Origin: Cytophagaceae bacterium
GTDB taxonomy: Bacteria > Bacteroidota > Bacteroidia > Cytophagales > UBA9547
Reading direction: 5' to 3'
Assembly (NCBI GenBank): GCA_027488865.1
Contig: JAIYAU010000058.1
Location: forward strand, 66,724-130,723
DNA length: 64,000 nt
Under the pieces are notes generated by a model. It did not search any database, was not told where the DNA came from, and saw nothing but the letters and a program-made list of their open reading frames with translations. This document shows positions 47,318-56,672 of this stretch, one piece after another. The translations under genes were made by a program, and so were the position numbers. Each line of letters opens with the position of its first letter. Positions within the stretch are counted from its first letter, which is position 1.

Positions 47318-48070
47318 ATGAATAAGCTTCCCATTTTATTAGTACTCATAATCAGCCTTCTTAGATACGAATCTGTTTTAGCACAAAAACAGAATTGGCC
47401 CTTAATATCATTGATCAACAAAGTTGAATATGTTAATAGCAGCTTTAATAACGACAATGCGGCTTGCGGTTTTTTACTAAAAGTTAATAATGACACCTTT
47501 GCTGTAACCGCGAAACATATTCTACTTGTTGCCAAAACAGATTCCATGAATTCTGTTTATTTTGGAAATAATTTAAAAAGTTGGATGATGTCTCCTAAAG
47601 ACAAGCCCCATGAAATTGTTTTAATTGACAAATTAATAAACGAAGACAAAACAGATTCCCTTACCTGGACATATTTGGCTACAAAAAGATTTAATTATAA
47701 CGATTGGCTTGTATTCTCAATAAAAGCCAATCGTTCAAAAGTAATTCCTTTAGAATTAAGAAGAACCAGCATCAAATACGGAGAACCCCTTTATGTAATT
47801 GGATGGACCTATGCAGATAAAGAAGGAATGCAAAGAGTTTATGAATACTCATATCTGGGATCGTATGGTACACATTTTAATATGAAATTGGTCAATGCTC
47901 CAATAGAAGGCAAAGGATTGAGTGGCTCTCCAGTAATCGATTCGGACGGACTACTCGTCGGAATAATATCTGATGGTTATTTTGACTCTGAAACTAGAAT
48001 GAAGATTTCGTCACCATGTAGCACAATCTGTTTATTTGACATATTGGCAAAAATGAAATATAAAAAATAA
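47318..48070 (+). CDS. Secreted trypsin-like serine protease-like protein
   Basis: Signal peptide; GFLLKVNNDTFAVTAKHIL (His block) and IEGKGLSGSPVIDSDGLLVGIISDG (Ser block). Confidence 0.7.
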   Translation: MNKLPILLVLIISLLRYESVLAQKQNWPLISLINKVEYVNSSFNNDNAACGFLLKVNNDTFAVTAKHILLVAKTDSMNSVYFGNNLKSWMMSPKDKPHEIVLIDKLINEDKTDSLTWTYLATKRFNYNDWLVFSIKANRSKVIPLELRRTSIKYGEPLYVIGWTYADKEGMQRVYEYSYLGSYGTHFNMKLVNAPIEGKGLSGSPVIDSDGLLVGIISDGYFDSETRMKISSPCSTICLFDILAKMKYKK

Positions 48071-48169: not shown

Positions 48170-49246
48170 TTAACTAACAGCACTAAGCTCAGCTTTTTGG
48201 GTGCGGATTTTCCAAATAAACCCATCCAAGATGTAATGTGTTACTTGTGGCACGGCTAAAAGGGATACCAACAATACTTTTGGTACCTGTCCAATTTCAG
48301 TGCCCCAAAAGAATGTAAAACCAAAGTATTGTGGATAATCGTGCCACACAAATGAATCCCACAGGGTTTCTTCAAAGAAAGCGAACCCAATCAATACCAA
48401 TATAAACAGCAACACTCCTCTATTAGTAAAAACTAGCAATTGAATCCTAGAAAATACGGAAGCGTTATTGCTCAGCTTTTTATGCCCATATACCCATACG
48501 AGCGCCATGTAAGGAACTCCGTGACTGACTACGTTTAAGAGAGTGAAGATGAGGTCTGAGTTGAAGTAAACAATGCCAAAATACCAAGACAAAGCAGTAC
48601 CCAACAAAATCATGTTTTTTGGGACATTAAAAAACTTGGATTGGAAAAACTCCCTTATTTCAAAAAACAGGTAAATACCCCATATAACCAAATACAAAAC
48701 ACCAAGATAAGGGATCAGCCATCGCTGTTCTGTAATGAGAAAATCGTTTTCTACAAACCACGTGAAGTTCTTTGCACCCGTCAGGTGCCAAACTAACACG
48801 GGATAGAGGGTGGCGGCGTAAATGACGGTTGTGGAGGCAATACTTCTTAGTTTGTTAGTTGGTTCATTTCTACCATACAGTTGGAAAAAACCATATTGTT
48901 GCCTTATAAAATGAAATACGGCGAGGTAAGCCATCACCCTCCAAAATACCAGATCACCCATTGCACACAGGCCTATGCCAACTAGCCATACCGCCATTGG
49001 AATCCCATACAAAAGCAACTTGTGATTTTTTTGCATGGTAGGGTCTAGGTAAGTTCGGTAGATGGTGCTGTATACATGACTGACATCGATCATCATCACC
49101 AAAATTAGCCAGTGCATAGGGCTAAGGTCTGAATGAAGATTAAAATACCCTTGAAATACAAAAACCAACAGCAGGCATAAAAAAGGTGGCATCAAAATAA
49201 ACGCCCAATCCAATCGACTCGAATGAATATAATTTTGTTTATGCAT
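48170..49246 (-). CDS. Polytopic membrane protein, last gene of the speD/DUF4178 operon
   Basis: Many hydrophobic helices; 8-bp overlap with upstream CDS. Confidence 0.75.
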   Translation of the reverse strand: MHKQNYIHSSRLDWAFILMPPFLCLLLVFVFQGYFNLHSDLSPMHWLILVMMIDVSHVYSTIYRTYLDPTMQKNHKLLLYGIPMAVWLVGIGLCAMGDLVFWRVMAYLAVFHFIRQQYGFFQLYGRNEPTNKLRSIASTTVIYAATLYPVLVWHLTGAKNFTWFVENDFLITEQRWLIPYLGVLYLVIWGIYLFFEIREFFQSKFFNVPKNMILLGTALSWYFGIVYFNSDLIFTLLNVVSHGVPYMALVWVYGHKKLSNNASVFSRIQLLVFTNRGVLLFILVLIGFAFFEETLWDSFVWHDYPQYFGFTFFWGTEIGQVPKVLLVSLLAVPQVTHYILDGFIWKIRTQKAELSAVS

Positions 49247-50882
49247 GATGATCAGTCTTTAATAGTTGCTTTGCTGCTTCTATGCCGCTATAAAACCCTT
49301 CTTCAAACACAGAAATGCCACTCAAATCGGTATGTGCAAAAAACAAAGAGTCATCTACGTTTTGTAAGGCTTGGCGGCGTTCCTCACCCCAGATAAACCC
49401 AACCTTTGGCTTGATCATGGCATGGCCCCACAAGCTTACGTCACATCGTATAACCCAAGACGGAAAGTGGCTATATACTTTTTGCATGTCAGCAAACATC
49501 ATCTCAACCCAATCTTGATGGGTCATTTTAAGGGCCTTTTTCCTTGCTTCCTTGCCAGATTCTGGGGTCAGGTAATACCACGTAAAGTTAACCGTATCTT
49601 GATGCCTGTTCAGGTTTTGGTGGGTGCTTTTGATATAACCCAAAGATTGTGAGCCATAAATCACATTGTCCCACGCCAAGGGAAATCCGTTGCGTTCATT
49701 TATTTTTGAAGCGTCCAACTCGGCATTAGCCACCACCCAAGTAGAATACTCAAAGCTTTGTGTATTCCTTAGTTTCAACTTTTTGATGTTGGTCTTAATA
49801 TGCCTTTGTATAAAAGTTGGGCAGCTAAAAATCACTTTGTCAGCAATAAATCGCTTTACTTGGTTATCGCGGTAATCGATGTAATCAATTTCATAACGCT
49901 TGTCTTTAGTTTGGTTAACTGCAAATACCATACTGCCACTTTGTATATGGGCTTTGCAAGTATTGATCAATTGCTCCACCAGCCAGCCATTCCCTTCTGG
50001 CCAAGTTAATACATGCTCCCCGTCTGCATTGCCAGCTTCCCCATGCCTTCCAGCAAAATAATGGATTCCCGCCCAAGCAGAGGTTTCCTCTAAACTGCTT
50101 CCATAGTCGTCTTTGCAGCAATACTTCACATACCAATGCAAATATGGGGAGTCTAATTGATGCTGAAGCAAAAATTCCTTCATAGATAATTTATCCAACT
50201 CTCGAAAGGAAGTATCCTTGGAACTAGCATCTATTGGCATATCAAAGGCATGCAGTCCATCGCTGCCGATGGCATTTTTATAAGCGTCCATGAGCGCAAT
50301 GAACTTTTTAATCTGCTCTTTCTCTTGCGCTGGCACGCCAAAATTTGGTATCAAGCCCTCTTGCCAATGCCCATTTATGAAGAGCCTTTCGTCTGGGTCG
50401 TGGCAAAGATGTTGTTCATTATAGTGAGGAAGCCCTTTTTCGTCAAAATGTGTAATTAGCCCAACTTCATCAAGCAAGGAAATCAACTCTTTCATTCTAA
50501 GGGATGGAATAGGCAAATAATGTGCGCCTAATGGAAACCTACCCGTTTTGTTTTCGCCATACCTAGCATTGCCCCCTGCCTGATCTTCCAGGTCCAACAG
50601 CTTAAAATCATCATAATTGTTCTGAATCAGATGTCTTGCAGCACTCAGCCCGCTCACTCCCCCTCCTATGATTACCGTACCAATTTTTTCTCTTTGCTGA
50701 GGTTTAGCGAATAACATCTTGAAAAGGTTATGCCCTCTTTGGTGTGAGGCACCAAGCATATCACCTACCACTTTGGATTTTTCGGGAGGAGAATTATACT
50801 TGTCCCATAACCAATAGATGGGCAAAGAGGCCGACAATGCCAACAAACTATTGGTGATAAATCGACGTCTTGAGATGGCCAT
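49239..50882 (-). CDS. FAD-dependent oxidoreductase (amine oxidase-like) with Tat signal
   Basis: SRRRFITNSLLALSASLPIYW twin-arginine signal; GTVIIGGGVSGLSAARHLIQNNYDDFKLLDLEDQAGGNARYG dinucleotide-binding motif; FEEGFYSGIEAA C-terminal motif. Confidence 0.88.
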   Translation of the reverse strand: MAISRRRFITNSLLALSASLPIYWLWDKYNSPPEKSKVVGDMLGASHQRGHNLFKMLFAKPQQREKIGTVIIGGGVSGLSAARHLIQNNYDDFKLLDLEDQAGGNARYGENKTGRFPLGAHYLPIPSLRMKELISLLDEVGLITHFDEKGLPHYNEQHLCHDPDERLFINGHWQEGLIPNFGVPAQEKEQIKKFIALMDAYKNAIGSDGLHAFDMPIDASSKDTSFRELDKLSMKEFLLQHQLDSPYLHWYVKYCCKDDYGSSLEETSAWAGIHYFAGRHGEAGNADGEHVLTWPEGNGWLVEQLINTCKAHIQSGSMVFAVNQTKDKRYEIDYIDYRDNQVKRFIADKVIFSCPTFIQRHIKTNIKKLKLRNTQSFEYSTWVVANAELDASKINERNGFPLAWDNVIYGSQSLGYIKSTHQNLNRHQDTVNFTWYYLTPESGKEARKKALKMTHQDWVEMMFADMQKVYSHFPSWVIRCDVSLWGHAMIKPKVGFIWGEERRQALQNVDDSLFFAHTDLSGISVFEEGFYSGIEAAKQLLKTDHHA

Positions 50883-50939
50883 CCTTTGTTAATAATGATT
50901 CTTAAAATACCTTCCGACAATTATATTCAAACCAAAAAC

Positions 50940-52487
50940 TCAATTTACCTTGCCCCATTCCTCTTCAAAATACCGAACAAGTGATTGGTTGTTGAGTTGA
51001 TTGACCTCCGCTTTCCTGCGCGCCATATCTACTGGAAAATTGCACATGGCTTCGAAGGTGTCGTGGTTATAAAATTTTAAGGCAAAAGGCAGAGGTTGAT
51101 GAGGTGGGAATTCGCCTTTACTCGCCATCATGTAGCCCCAGTCGCCAAAAGCTGGCACAAAGGTATGGTAAGGCAATGTTTTAAACCCAGCCTTTTGCAA
51201 CGTAGCCTCCACACACCAATAGGACTTGGGAGCCACCAAAGGGGAAGTAGACTGGATTACCACAAGTCCTTGGTCGCCCAGACATTTGTATAACTGCTTG
51301 TAAAAAGTGAGACTATACAGTTTTCCAACTGAGAAATTAGAAGGATCTGGGAAGTCGATGATAAAAGCATTAAATTGCTTCTTACTTTCTAACAGCCAAA
51401 TAAATGCGTCTTGGTTAATAATTTCAATTTTAGGATCACTCAGCGCATCTTTGTTAAGCGGAGTAAGCAAGGGGTGTGATTTAAACAATTGTGTTACCGC
51501 AGGATCCAAGTCTACCAAATACAATTTTTTTACCTCTTTGTATTTCAATACCTCCCGTGCAGCCAATCCATCTCCACCTCCTAAGATTACTATTGTATCC
51601 TTTTGTGCCAAAGAGGTCATCAAGGGGTGCACCAGCGACTCATGATACCTGTACTCATCTAAGGATGAAAACTGCAAATTATTATTCAGGAAAAGCCGCA
51701 CATCGTTTTTGTGTTTGGTAAGCACTATGCGCTGATAAGGTGTTGATTTGGTAAAAATTACCTTATCATGGTATGAAAATTCCTCTGCAAAATCCTGAAT
51801 CTTGGTGGCAAAGATAAATGCCACAACTAAAAAGGCAATCACTATAAACGCAACACCTTTGAGCCATTTAACTTTGTACCCAGGGTCCTTTAAACTAAAA
51901 CACACCCACAAAGCGACAACAGCATTGAGTAAACCAAAAAAGAGAGAGGTGCGAATGAGGCCTATATGTGGCACAAAAAACAATGGGAAGATCAAAGAAG
52001 CCAACAATGCACCGATGTAATCAAAGGTAAAAACCTCAGATACCAACTCGCTGAAAGTAAACTTATCCTTCAACATGCGCATTAACAGCGGAATCTCCAG
52101 TCCTACCAATAAACCTGTGAGAAAAACCAGCACATATAATATTAGCCTGAAATAGAGGATTTGCTCGAAAAGTACAAAAAGTATGGTGGAAGAAAACCCG
52201 CCGAGTACTGCAATCATTAACTCGATCTGAACAAATCGCGCAAAAAGATCGGTATTAAAATACCTAGAGAGATAAGAACCTACTCCCATCGCAAAAAGAT
52301 AGGTACCTATAATGGTGGAAAACTGTGTAACGGAGTCACCCAACACATAACTGGCCAATGTGCCTGCTACCAGCTCATAAATGAGCCCACAGGTAGCAAT
52401 TACAAATACTGAAAACAGCAACAAGGCTGGTTTGGCCAAGCCTTGTTGCTGCTGCTCTAGACCACTATCCATGAATCGCCGACGCAA
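50940..52487 (-). CDS. Membrane-anchored polyamine aminopropyltransferase (spermidine synthase-like)
   Basis: N-terminal multi-TM region, then FSSLDEYRYHESLVHPLM, VILGGGDGLAAREVLKY, IIDFPDPSN, LYSLTFYKQLYKCL. Confidence 0.92.
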   Translation of the reverse strand: MRRRFMDSGLEQQQQGLAKPALLLFSVFVIATCGLIYELVAGTLASYVLGDSVTQFSTIIGTYLFAMGVGSYLSRYFNTDLFARFVQIELMIAVLGGFSSTILFVLFEQILYFRLILYVLVFLTGLLVGLEIPLLMRMLKDKFTFSELVSEVFTFDYIGALLASLIFPLFFVPHIGLIRTSLFFGLLNAVVALWVCFSLKDPGYKVKWLKGVAFIVIAFLVVAFIFATKIQDFAEEFSYHDKVIFTKSTPYQRIVLTKHKNDVRLFLNNNLQFSSLDEYRYHESLVHPLMTSLAQKDTIVILGGGDGLAAREVLKYKEVKKLYLVDLDPAVTQLFKSHPLLTPLNKDALSDPKIEIINQDAFIWLLESKKQFNAFIIDFPDPSNFSVGKLYSLTFYKQLYKCLGDQGLVVIQSTSPLVAPKSYWCVEATLQKAGFKTLPYHTFVPAFGDWGYMMASKGEFPPHQPLPFALKFYNHDTFEAMCNFPVDMARRKAEVNQLNNQSLVRYFEEEWGKVN

Positions 52488-52683
52488 TAATGATCGCTAT
52501 CGCAAGCATAAATGCCGAAAGAATAATAGCCAAGGCCACGTTTTTGTTCTCTAAAATCTCCTTGTAGAGATTCTCTGGAGTTATTTTCTCAATGATCCAA
52601 AAAGATAAAACCAAAATGATTATTCCGATGAATGAATAAACGATCGATGCCCAGATGTACTTTAAACTTAGTAAATGTTCCAT
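52465..52683 (-). CDS. DUF350 (YjfL-like) small membrane protein
   Basis: 72 aa, two hydrophobic segments, FIGIIILVLSFWIIEKITPENLYKEILENKNVALAIILSAFMLAIAIIIASAIHG. Confidence 0.8.
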   Translation of the reverse strand: MEHLLSLKYIWASIVYSFIGIIILVLSFWIIEKITPENLYKEILENKNVALAIILSAFMLAIAIIIASAIHG

Positions 52684-52702
52684 GATAATAAATGTTATGA
52701 TT

Positions 52703-52855
52703 TTATTTATGTGAATGATCTTTTTTCTCAGGTGACCACTTGTCGGATTGAGAACCTAAAAACCTCAATCCAAACAAATTGGCCATTAAAAGCAATAAGA
52801 ATAAAACTATGAGTACCACTAGGTACGTACGTTCTTTAATATTATTAGCTACCAT
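52703..52855 (-). CDS. 50-aa single-pass membrane protein, not in the supplied ORF track
   Basis: Own translation: MVANNIKERTYLVVLIVLFLLLLMANLFGLRFLGSQSDKWSPEKKDHSHK*; start overlaps the end of the upstream DUF4178 CDS by 11 bp. Confidence 0.7.
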   Translation of the reverse strand: MVANNIKERTYLVVLIVLFLLLLMANLFGLRFLGSQSDKWSPEKKDHSHK

Positions 52856-54128
52856 ATTTACTTCCTATCCAACGACTTTTTTCGAAATTTCCGCTTCTTA
52901 TAGTTATATACATAGGATACAACAAAGCCAGAATCAATACTATTACATAATTGGATATTACTTTCGTATTTTCTTCTATAATGAAGTTATAATAGTATAA
53001 CTTTTGATGTACTTCCCATGCGAGTCCATTTGAGAGCTCTGCATGAGGTGTGATACTTAATTTATAAGTACCATTAGGAACTAAAGATAGTATCTTATCC
53101 TCTGTATGTGTCCCTTCTGACCAATTTTCGCCACCTTCATATCCATGATAATATTCAATACCAATTTCGGTACTAAATTCGTCATCCGTATCTTGATTAA
53201 TAAGGTTCACTTCTGTTTCTAACCAGGTATTTTCTGCCATTGGTGCGTCCAAAGTTAACCTCACAGCACTAAAGCCCAACGGGCCATTTACTTTAAAATC
53301 TTCTGATACATAAGACTTGAAAGTACCAGTGGCCACTGATACCGTATCGATGGGCAAGGTTTTTCGAAAGATTTCCTTGTTAGGAACTAGTGCAGCGTGC
53401 AATAAATATAGAAAAACCATAGAGACATAAAATACCACAAGATAGGTCCAAGCTGATTTTTCATTATTTTTATAAGGGTTTGGTTGATTGCTAATAACAC
53501 CAGTGGCTCTTGGAAATGTTATTTTTATATTCCTAAATGCCTTCTGTACTTCTGAGGTTTTTAGATAAGTGGCTTGATACCACTCTGTTTTATCGGTATT
53601 CGTTTCTCTGATCAGGCTATAAGGTGGCGCAATATACTCAACAATATAATTATCTTTTTCGGGCATTAAGTCCCACATAAATTCACCGTCGGCACCAGCA
53701 TAATAGGTATTGTATTTATTAAATAGTTGGTATTTAAGGCCTTCGTAATTTACCTCTTCACCTTTCTTTTGTGGGGCGCCTATTGGCTTTATTATGTTCC
53801 ATTGGCCGTTTGACTCACTTAATGTCACATAACCATAAATATTGTTATACAGTACGTATTCATTCCAACCGTAAACAACACCAGTCTCCTTGGCCAAAAG
53901 CAGCCCAATCACTTTATATTCAATATCGTCAAATATTGCTATGGAGCCTTTTGGTATACACCCTCCAGCTTCACGTACAAAATCCCCTTTTATACTTAAA
54001 CGGAAGTTGAATTCAGAAAAATAAGTTTTACAAGCACTACAAACAAAATATTGCGCTCTGTTGCCCGTGTAGCGGGGCATTTTGTGGTTACATTTAGGGC
54101 AGATGACTTCGCTTTGGGTAAAAATCAT
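52845..54128 (-). CDS. DUF4178 domain-containing protein with N-terminal zinc ribbon and two TM segments
   Basis: ICPKCNHKM...FVCSACKTYF ribbon; IAIFDDIEYKVIGLLLAKETGVVYGWNEYVLYN DUF4178-like core. Confidence 0.8.
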   Translation of the reverse strand: MIFTQSEVICPKCNHKMPRYTGNRAQYFVCSACKTYFSEFNFRLSIKGDFVREAGGCIPKGSIAIFDDIEYKVIGLLLAKETGVVYGWNEYVLYNNIYGYVTLSESNGQWNIIKPIGAPQKKGEEVNYEGLKYQLFNKYNTYYAGADGEFMWDLMPEKDNYIVEYIAPPYSLIRETNTDKTEWYQATYLKTSEVQKAFRNIKITFPRATGVISNQPNPYKNNEKSAWTYLVVFYVSMVFLYLLHAALVPNKEIFRKTLPIDTVSVATGTFKSYVSEDFKVNGPLGFSAVRLTLDAPMAENTWLETEVNLINQDTDDEFSTEIGIEYYHGYEGGENWSEGTHTEDKILSLVPNGTYKLSITPHAELSNGLAWEVHQKLYYYNFIIEENTKVISNYVIVLILALLYPMYITIRSGNFEKSRWIGSKYGS

Positions 54129-54139
54129 ATATAGTTCAG

Positions 54140-54724
54140 CTAGTGCAAAGTAGTAATTATTTCGTTAAAAGATATATCAACACCTTTAAAAAATTTTTGA
54201 TTACCTTGGTTGTCTTGATGAATGATCAATAAATCTGCACCGTTACTACATTCTATGGATTTAAAGCTGGAAAAATAAGTGTCAAAATCAGGAAGTTCAC
54301 CTTCTAGGCTATAACCTAAGGCAGTGTGTATGGCATCTACAAAATAGGCTTTGTCATCAACGGTAATTTTATTCCCTAGGCCTAATTTTTTATTAAAAGT
54401 TTCTTTTTGTGAACCCATCAATACAAAGTAGTGCCCCAAGCTCTCACACAGCCAAAAATGTTGTTTATCAAGACAAACCGCCCATTTATTTAAATACCCC
54501 TCTGTATAGAAATAGCGAAGTTTACCAGTAACTATTCCCTTAGTTTTTTGTACTGTGATGGTTTTATGGATAAGGTCTAGGCTAAACTCGTTGGGCGGCG
54601 GGTAGCATTTAAACGTAACTTGTGTATTGCTAGATACTATATAACCACAATGATCACAGCATTTTACGAGTGTAAATTGGTACCTAAAAGTTAAAAAATT
54701 ACCGCAATTGCCACATTTAACCAT
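54140..54724 (-). CDS. DUF4178-like protein with N-terminal zinc ribbon
   Basis: CGNCGNFLTFRYQFTLVKCCDHCG; ITVQKTKGIVTGKLRYFYTEGYLNKWAVCLDKQHFWLCESLGHYFVL. Confidence 0.7.
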   Translation of the reverse strand: MVKCGNCGNFLTFRYQFTLVKCCDHCGYIVSSNTQVTFKCYPPPNEFSLDLIHKTITVQKTKGIVTGKLRYFYTEGYLNKWAVCLDKQHFWLCESLGHYFVLMGSQKETFNKKLGLGNKITVDDKAYFVDAIHTALGYSLEGELPDFDTYFSSFKSIECSNGADLLIIHQDNQGNQKFFKGVDISFNEIITTLH

Positions 54725-54734
54725 TTGACTTTGG

Positions 54735-55091
54735 CTATCTCTTTAATTCCGTTTTAGAATGACTTGAGCTCTCAAAATAAGCGAGGCAATCTTCAAATAT
54801 ACCTCTGGCTTTGCCGTCGTTTACTTGCTCATAATTAGACAAATAGACATCCAGTGTTAGATATCCATGTTCTGGCCACGTATGAATAGAGATGTGCGAT
54901 TCTGTAAGGCAAACCATCCCAGTAAACCCGCTTTGCTCCCCAAAACTGTGATAGTGATCTGCTAGTTTGTGCAGGTCGTAATGTATTATCCTTTCATCTA
55001 AAAACAACCGAATGGAATGAACATCAATCAGTAAGTGTGTAGAAAGTGTATTGATCTCCCCAATAACATGTAGGCCTGGTTTGTATGGCAT
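54735..55091 (-). CDS. speD: S-adenosylmethionine decarboxylase proenzyme (prokaryotic class)
   Basis: HLLIDVHSIRLFLDE and LTESHISIHTWPEHGYLTLDVY self-cleavage/pyruvoyl motif. Confidence 0.95.
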   Translation of the reverse strand: MPYKPGLHVIGEINTLSTHLLIDVHSIRLFLDERIIHYDLHKLADHYHSFGEQSGFTGMVCLTESHISIHTWPEHGYLTLDVYLSNYEQVNDGKARGIFEDCLAYFESSSHSKTELKR

Positions 55092-55616: not shown

Positions 55617-56672
55617 TCAATTTTTTGATTTGGGTAATTTTTTAATATCATTTTCAAGTTCCTTTAAGCTTTCAGTTCTTTCATTAGCTTTTTGTACAAT
55701 TTTATATTTTTCAAATTCCTCTCCTGATCTTTGCAATGCAATTTCGTGACTTATTTTTCCTGCATGGTCTAACAATTCCCTTCCGTTCAATTGCAGAATA
55801 GAATCTAATCGGTTAATCCAATCTGTCATATACATGGGAGTGCGTTGCTGTGCCATTGTTTCCGCAAAGGCTAAATATTGCTCCACCAATAATCCCAGAA
55901 GTTTTATTTCATCTTCATTCAGGTAGTTTTTAGCAATGCTCACATCCGACTTCTTAATGGAAACAGCGTTTTTCTTATCATATGATTGCATTCCCAACAA
56001 TGGCAAACTGGCATCAACCCTGCGATACACCAACTCCGCAGCCGTTTGCTCACTGATAGCCCAAAGTAATTTATTTTGTACTACTTTAAAAAACTCAATG
56101 GTTTTTTCATCCTTGGGTTCATAATCTATGCTAGTTGTGTAGATGTCCTTGATTTTTTGATAGAAAAACCGTTCCGATAGCCTTATTTCCCGAATACGTT
56201 CTTGCAATTCGTTGAAATAGTTCATCGAATTTCCCGATTTGAAACGGTCGTCGTTTAGGGCAAAACCTTTGATAATGTATTCTTTGAGCCTTTGTGTAGC
56301 CCAAATACGGAACTGTTTGCCTTGAGGTGATTTTACTCTGTAGCCTACCGAAATTATTACGTCAAGATTGTAGGCATATACCTCAACTTCCTGTGTTTTT
56401 CCAGCCATAGCACCATGCTGAGTGGTTATTCGGAATTTCCGAACTACCACTTTCTCGTCCAATTCGCCTTCTGCAAATACATTTTTAATATGTTCGTTTA
56501 TAGTCGATTTGGCTTTGCCAAATAAAGTTGCCATTTGGTCTTGGGTAAGCCAAACGGTTTCTTCCTCCAGCCGAACATCAATTTTAATACTGCCATCGGG
56601 GTTTTGGTATAGGATGATTTCGCTATTCATTTTCCAATTTAATATTTCTTCAATATAAAGCGGTTTGTTCAA
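55617..56672 (-). CDS. RhuM family protein
   Basis: EIILYQNPDGSIKIDVRLEEETVWLTQDQMATLFGKAKSTINEHIKNVFAEGEL...VYAYNLDVIISVGYRVKSPQGKQFRIWATQRLKEYIIKGF. Confidence 0.93.
   Translation of the reverse strand: MNKPLYIEEILNWKMNSEIILYQNPDGSIKIDVRLEEETVWLTQDQMATLFGKAKSTINEHIKNVFAEGELDEKVVVRKFRITTQHGAMAGKTQEVEVYAYNLDVIISVGYRVKSPQGKQFRIWATQRLKEYIIKGFALNDDRFKSGNSMNYFNELQERIREIRLSERFFYQKIKDIYTTSIDYEPKDEKTIEFFKVVQNKLLWAISEQTAAELVYRRVDASLPLLGMQSYDKKNAVSIKKSDVSIAKNYLNEDEIKLLGLLVEQYLAFAETMAQQRTPMYMTDWINRLDSILQLNGRELLDHAGKISHEIALQRSGEEFEKYKIVQKANERTESLKELENDIKKLPKSKN

Follow-up and report, generated by a model that had tools for sequence, protein, structure and literature searches.

The stretch of DNA analysed here, 64,000 nucleotides long (the window), lies on contig C55 of the 4.3-Mb genome of a Cytophagaceae bacterium (genome label G000) and carries, at positions 48170-55091, eight tightly spaced open reading frames (ORFs), all on the minus strand. 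They encode, among others, a homologue of S-adenosylmethionine (AdoMet) decarboxylase (SpeD), a membrane-bound aminopropyltransferase of the spermidine-synthase type, a flavoenzyme with a signal for twin-arginine translocation (Tat) and a 50-aa membrane protein with a flexible tail. The best explanation for this operon, which we put forward tentatively, is that an aminopropyl group is transferred from decarboxylated AdoMet (dcAdoMet) to the C-terminal lysine of the anchored tail protein, followed by oxidation. The tail protein would thereby become a tangible candidate for the acceptor that membrane spermidine-synthase-like fusions have so far lacked; if true, proteins would be modified in a new way, at a C-terminal lysine and on the envelope side, and the sibling chemistry, spermidine ligation, would be recognisable by the residue with which the partner protein ends. 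An earlier note, drawn up from the sequence alone, had described eight co-directional genes with gaps of -23 to +57 bp, and the ORF check bore this out; its assignments of SpeD, DUF350, the spermidine-synthase-like protein and the flavin adenine dinucleotide (FAD) oxidoreductase were confirmed by Pfam and NCBIfam.

To collect relatives, a sample of 396 genomes of the phylum was queried for the full-length synthase fusion and for TM358, the polytopic membrane protein encoded by the last gene of the operon, and species genomes were scanned with TM358 as the sole query. The scan yielded at least 556 relatives, and counts over 80 refer to the best 80 loci. These come from Chitinophaga, Pedobacter, Mucilaginibacter, Dyadobacter, Hymenobacter, Flavobacterium and others and show a recurring gene order: speD, an optional zinc-ribbon gene, DUF4178, the small transmembrane (TM) protein, DUF350, aminopropyltransferase, FAD oxidoreductase and TM358. 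The oxidoreductase was present in 79 loci, synthase and DUF4178 in 77 each, DUF350 in 73, speD in 70 and the small TM protein, recognised by profile, in 67, while the gene for the 194-aa zinc-ribbon protein occurred in 17; at least some of the loci lacking the synthase are short contigs. As the gene order recurs and each core gene occurs in 67-79 of the 80 loci, the association is far beyond chance. The earlier note had made its reading depend on such co-occurrence across Bacteroidota, and the neighbourhoods display it. Seven of the eight genes, all but that for the 194-aa protein, are a conserved Bacteroidota operon, and the genes almost certainly act as one functional unit. In the phylum sample, the full-length fusion was present in 29 of the 396 genomes, the source genome counted. 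Fusions 50-57% identical to the source copy were preceded, in this common order, by speD, DUF4178, the small TM protein and a mini-DUF350, and mostly occurred with the FAD oxidoreductase and TM358 as well; those at 35-38% identity mostly belong to the already published type with PspA, DUF4178 and a long DUF350. Full-length TM358 orthologues were found in 11 of the 396 genomes, in all 11 as neighbours of a synthase.

The predicted acceptor (52703-52855, minus strand) has a single TM segment and a flexible tail ending in ...KKDHSHK. Its C-terminus is the most constant feature of this protein family, as His-Lys is found in all 76 loci having the ORF, one of 77 loci lacking it. The ORF was picked by position rather than by profile, which gave HK in 74 of the 76; two wrong ORF picks were re-read and end in FYHK and SSHK. 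The tail ahead of His-Lys varies, with a median length of 30 residues and a high content of G, S, R, H, T, N and Y. The mean net charge falls from +1.4 before the TM segment to -0.5 after it, and the protein is therefore predicted to be oriented N-in/C-out. Among the other operon proteins a C-terminal Lys occurs in 0-6%, or 17% for TM358, against a background of 58/365. A Shine-Dalgarno origin of the terminal Lys codon was rejected, as no consistent Shine-Dalgarno sequence was found downstream in the sequences examined and the codons for the penultimate His are mixed (CAT/CAC). In the phylum sample, the partner at 26 of 28 full-length synthase loci is anchored in the membrane and has a G/S/R/H-rich tail with a C-terminal Lys; the scaffolds comprise 50-80-aa TM proteins, lipoproteins of 230-254 aa and, at locus L053, apparently a fusion to a DUF4178-type protein. 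The lipoprotein partners, with tail ends such as ...SRSGGFGK and ...GGSGGK, are unrelated to the 50-aa protein. Plasmid loci of Alpha-, Beta- and Gammaproteobacteria and of Gemmatimonadota (two from Novosphingobium and one each from Gemmatirosa, Burkholderia, Tritonibacter, Ensifer and Alteromonas) have a Lys-ended tail in seven of seven cases. The 50-aa gene, first listed merely as one for a TM protein, does encode a single TM segment, but its invariant C-terminal Lys makes the product the best candidate acceptor; that the lysine itself is the acceptor is a tentative proposal. Alternatively, the tail might be no substrate at all, with His-Lys binding metal or docking onto the synthase, DUF350 or TM358 and the acceptor being encoded outside the operon. 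We consider this unlikely: the tails of the Bacteroidota form are His-rich and the conserved His and Asp residues of TM358 could hold a metal, but in the lipoprotein tails (GFGK, GGK, SGK) Lys alone is retained and His is not.

The proposal that the tail lysine is modified is sharpened by a comparison with a second type of operon, as DUF350 also occurs beside ATP-grasp ligases resembling glutathionylspermidine synthetase. Seventeen strong PF03738 loci from the same phylum sample served as the comparison set, and the partner tail was recognised in 15 of them. All 15 have Gly, Ser or Ala as the final tail residue and none has Lys, in contrast to 26 of 28 at the synthase loci (Fisher p ~9e-10, phylogeny ignored). 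Likewise, GG forms the C-terminus of E. coli YgiB and YjfM, and the adjoining YgiC and YjfC are annotated as peptide--spermidine ligases. A ligase works on a carboxyl end and an aminopropyltransferase on an amine, and the last tail residue suits the reaction of each enzyme. Both kinds of operon are carried by genome G166, while the source genome has no PF03738 match. The ligase partner tails (loci L163-L179) fall into the classes GG/GFGG, SVSS/RASS, LGS and IHA, which perhaps reflect distinct ligase specificities. This contrast also bears on the idea that an envelope lipid or small membrane amine, e.g., the phosphatidylethanolamine headgroup, is aminopropylated and the tail protein acts as scaffold or sensor. 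The fusion of the synthase to a membrane domain, the membrane proteins encoded by neighbouring genes and the PspA of related operons would agree with this, and PMC11237479 proposes that other substrates are aminopropylated in membrane dynamics. However, it leaves unexplained why unrelated scaffolds share the Lys end and why Gly, Ser or Ala takes its place in ligase operons, and we regard a lipid acceptor as unlikely.

Aminopropylation of the tail lysine would require an active transferase on the outer side of the inner membrane. The synthase (50940-52472, minus strand), consisting of seven TM segments and a spermidine-synthase domain, matches NF002956 (PRK03612) with 658 bits and the spermine synthase family with 109 bits. 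It also matches aminopropyltransferases in the PDB, and in an alignment the motifs DEYRYHE, GGGDG and DFPDP are seen to be retained, and with them the dcAdoMet-site and catalytic Asp motifs of spermidine synthase (SpeE). The 23-bp overlap with the DUF350 gene presupposes a TTG start at 52487; the ATG at 52472, giving an overlap of 8 bp as in several relatives, is probably the start. In the average of 105 sequences, seven hydrophobic stretches stand out in the fusion, in line with the 7TM architecture stated in PMC11237479, and Lys and Arg are concentrated at the N-terminus and in loops 2, 4 and 6, which would place the catalytic domain outside the cytoplasm. Periplasmic catalysis is thus fairly likely. 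The Tat-signal flavoenzyme (547 aa; 49239-50882, minus strand) belongs to the flavin amine oxidase superfamily (PF01593, 48.8 bits at a cut-off of 19.8), and its profile matches to amine and polyamine oxidases in the PDB lie mainly over the FAD-binding end. An R[RK]xF motif is present in 67 of 79 operon copies, in many cases with a lipobox-like Cys after it, and TatC is encoded in the source genome. The synthase domain, the tail and the flavoenzyme are accordingly all predicted to be periplasmic.

SpeD (118 aa; 54735-55091, minus strand), the sole SpeD of the source genome, is a class 1b AdoMet decarboxylase homologue (PF02675, 77 bits; PDB 2iii/1tlu). It keeps the pyruvoyl Ser and the catalytic His (ESHISIHTWPE), equivalent to Ser63 and His68 of T. 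maritima, and deviates from the class 1b residues only at the equivalent of Cys83, where it has Ser (DVYLSN). A tally, with inspection of the pattern misses, gave Ser at this position in 62 of 70 operon SpeDs (motif D[IV][YF]LSN) and Cys in 8 of 70, the latter, among those shown, mostly of Flavobacterium type; the Ser-for-Cys exchange in most operon SpeDs is new here. Cys83 is counted among the residues for SpeD processing and catalysis (PMC10407285). The Ser83-type SpeD likely has decarboxylase activity.

The operon span contains neither PspA nor a putrescine-forming gene, as had been noted earlier, but both exist elsewhere in the genome. A single spermidine-synthase gene scored over the cut-off in the source genome. 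Outside the window the genome carries a SpeA-like decarboxylase (C20), an agmatine-deiminase-family gene (C18) and a DHS/SpeY-type gene (C14), and a triamine is therefore probably made without the operon. In other bacteria, DHS-family genes of this kind encode homospermidine synthase (SpeY; PMC9992855), and by analogy this one may make homospermidine. The carboxyspermidine route was rejected, no NspC scoring over the cut-off in the source genome. With the genome having its own putrescine and homospermidine genes, the operon is unlikely to serve bulk polyamine synthesis, and its main job is very probably other than bulk spermidine. That SpeD and the synthase make, and perhaps export, free spermidine or aminopropylagmatine, which the flavoenzyme degrades or regulates, appears improbable: the canonical spermidine synthase motifs, the amine oxidase superfamily and the SpeA-like and agmatine deiminase genes would suit it, but a DHS/SpeY-type triamine gene is already present, the catalytic domain is predicted to be periplasmic and SpeD has Ser for Cys.

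The operon conservation, the invariant lysine, the ligase contrast, the catalytic motifs and the predicted topology were computed, and for aminopropylation of the tail lysine they suggest the following sequence of steps. SpeD would make dcAdoMet, which would reach the outer face of the inner membrane by export or presentation, perhaps via the 7-TM domain and DUF350; the synthase domain would then move the aminopropyl group onto the side-chain amine of the lysine that ends the anchored tail protein. In chemical terms, the side chain of lysine is an aminobutyl group and resembles putrescine. Finally, the flavoenzyme, exported via Tat and partnered in the membrane by TM358, might oxidise the modified amine. 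The envelope aminopropyl modification suggested in the earlier note is in this way partly supported, by the co-occurrence, the separate homospermidine-type route and the predicted periplasmic parts. A more specific version, in which periplasmic aminopropylation of the C-terminal lysine is the amine-side counterpart of the carboxyl-side ligases and the Bacteroidota product is processed by the flavoenzyme and TM358, is possible, though somewhat less likely than not. The physiological purpose likely lies in the area of envelope stability or stress.

Several points weigh against aminopropylation of the tail lysine. The chief difficulty is that dcAdoMet must cross the membrane, and to our knowledge export of dcAdoMet is not known. 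The modified lysine is a prediction from sequence, and the positive-inside topology is likewise a statistical prediction. With Ser in place of the catalytic Cys, the activity of SpeD may be doubted. Invariance of the last residue alone is no proof, since it is not unique to the tail: all 70 operon SpeDs have Arg at the C-terminus. Within a clade the tail sequences are non-independent, and the C-terminal His-Lys could instead bind a metal or partner, as considered above. In addition, no Lys tail was found at two synthase loci, L054 and L055 (genomes G158 and G064), where the membrane synthase is divergent from speD, a GSP_synth ATP-grasp gene and a tail ending in ...STRSYGG. These two coincide exactly with the synthase loci that lie beside a ligase and a GG tail (also numbered L178 and L179); one may speculate that the synthase there extends a polyamine attached by the ligase.

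With regard to known systems, linkage of AdoMet decarboxylase (AdoMetDC), the transmembrane spermidine synthase (SpdSyn) fusion and DUF350 was published by Li et al. in 2019 (Biochem J 476:2579); such fusions reportedly failed to replace spermidine synthase in E. coli and their hosts were reportedly without spermidine, which weighs against a free-polyamine pathway. The form with PspA, CesT, DUF4178 and DUF350 was published in 2024 as group 2 (PMC11237479), which matches the link to AdoMetDC, spermidine synthase and PspA made in the earlier note. The core association of AdoMetDC, 7-TM SpdSyn fusion, DUF350 and DUF4178, common to the source operon and these systems, is already known, so that the label "uncharacterised" does not hold for it, whereas, as far as the literature shows, both the variant seen in Bacteroidota and the rule of a C-terminal lysine appear to be new. 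Unlike group 2, the source operon is without PspA and CesT, its DUF350 is reduced to one short unit, and the Tat flavoenzyme and TM358 are added; in place of the lipoprotein it has the ~50-aa TM protein, which shares with the former the Lys-ended tail alone. The consulted portion of PMC11237479 makes no mention of such a tail. The PspA gene of the source genome lies on another contig, C52 (L004 1489-2971), beside genes for a TerD-like stress protein and an ammonium-transporter-like protein.

The YgiB-YgiC and YjfL-YjfM-YjfC systems of E. coli resemble the source operon in their DUF350 protein (YjfL), a lipoprotein-like partner with a Gly/Ser/Arg-rich C-terminal tail and polyamine-type chemistry, but combine a PF03738 ATP-grasp enzyme with Gly/Ser/Ala ends instead of an aminopropyltransferase with a Lys end; peptide-spermidine ligases were the subject of Pederick et al. 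(2023), as cited in PMC12568646. The SpeD-SpeE pathway uses the same two enzyme families, with the same catalytic motifs for the synthase only, whereas here the synthase is membrane-fused with a domain predicted to be periplasmic, SpeD lacks Cys83 and another triamine gene is present in the genome. Diatom silaffins carry aminopropyl units on lysine side chains (PMC4557024), the type of product predicted for the source operon, but they are eukaryotic, N-methylated, often bear multiple units on many lysines and serve silica deposition.

TM358 (358 aa; 48170-49246, minus strand) is an unclassified membrane family with conserved His and Asp, new here, and gave no match in Pfam, NCBIfam and PDB sequence searches. 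The AlphaFold model improved from a pLDDT of 65 with 11 sequences to 91.8 with 77 sequences (AF2). The structure check called for by the earlier note thus yielded a good model but no PDB fold match, as Foldseek against the PDB returned only noise (best E 0.54). The charge bias supports ten TM segments with both ends inside. His57, His112, His242, His337, Asp54 and Asp341 are invariant and are retained in distant homologues of 390-436 aa in other contexts. Judged from helix positions, the conserved His appear to sit near mid-membrane, suggesting a metal or heme site, and as a guess TM358 could accept electrons from the flavoenzyme or work with it as an oxygenase. The distant homologues (L157-L161) have RQHY replacing RQQY and lie outside the operon. 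Three of the five adjoin GATase/phosphoribosyltransferase-like, GTPase and phosphoglycerate dehydrogenase-like genes (judged by length, one locus being scanned); these neighbours, together with LptF/G and an SDF symporter, gave no functional clue. At L162 (G364:C12, ~371 kb) a TM358 relic with stop codons was found; TM358, in fragments, was the one operon profile that gave a match there, which suggests that this lineage has lost the operon.

Of the remaining genes, also on the minus strand, mini-DUF350 (72 aa; 52465-52683) matches PF03994 with 53 bits over profile positions 6-66 of 133, about half of the model. The earlier note had counted two DUF4178-like genes. For the 427-aa protein (52845-54128), with a zinc ribbon, DUF4178, a TM segment and a conserved C-terminal domain with the motif EYYHGYExGExWSEG, this holds (PF13785, 40 bits), and the DUF4178 profile gave weak zinc-ribbon-type matches and nothing better in the PDB. 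The accessory 194-aa CxxC zinc-ribbon protein (54140-54724) scores under the Pfam DUF4178 cut-off, though a Novosphingobium homologue is annotated as DUF4178. From speD to TM358 the intergenic distances are 10, 11, -11, 19, -23, 57 and -8 bp. The operon is flanked upstream by a RhuM-family gene on the same strand (55617-56672) and downstream by a gene for a trypsin-like protease, which lies on the other strand (47318-48070). In Novosphingobium ES2-1 (L148), an SPFH/band-7 gene immediately precedes the DUF4178 genes of the operon.

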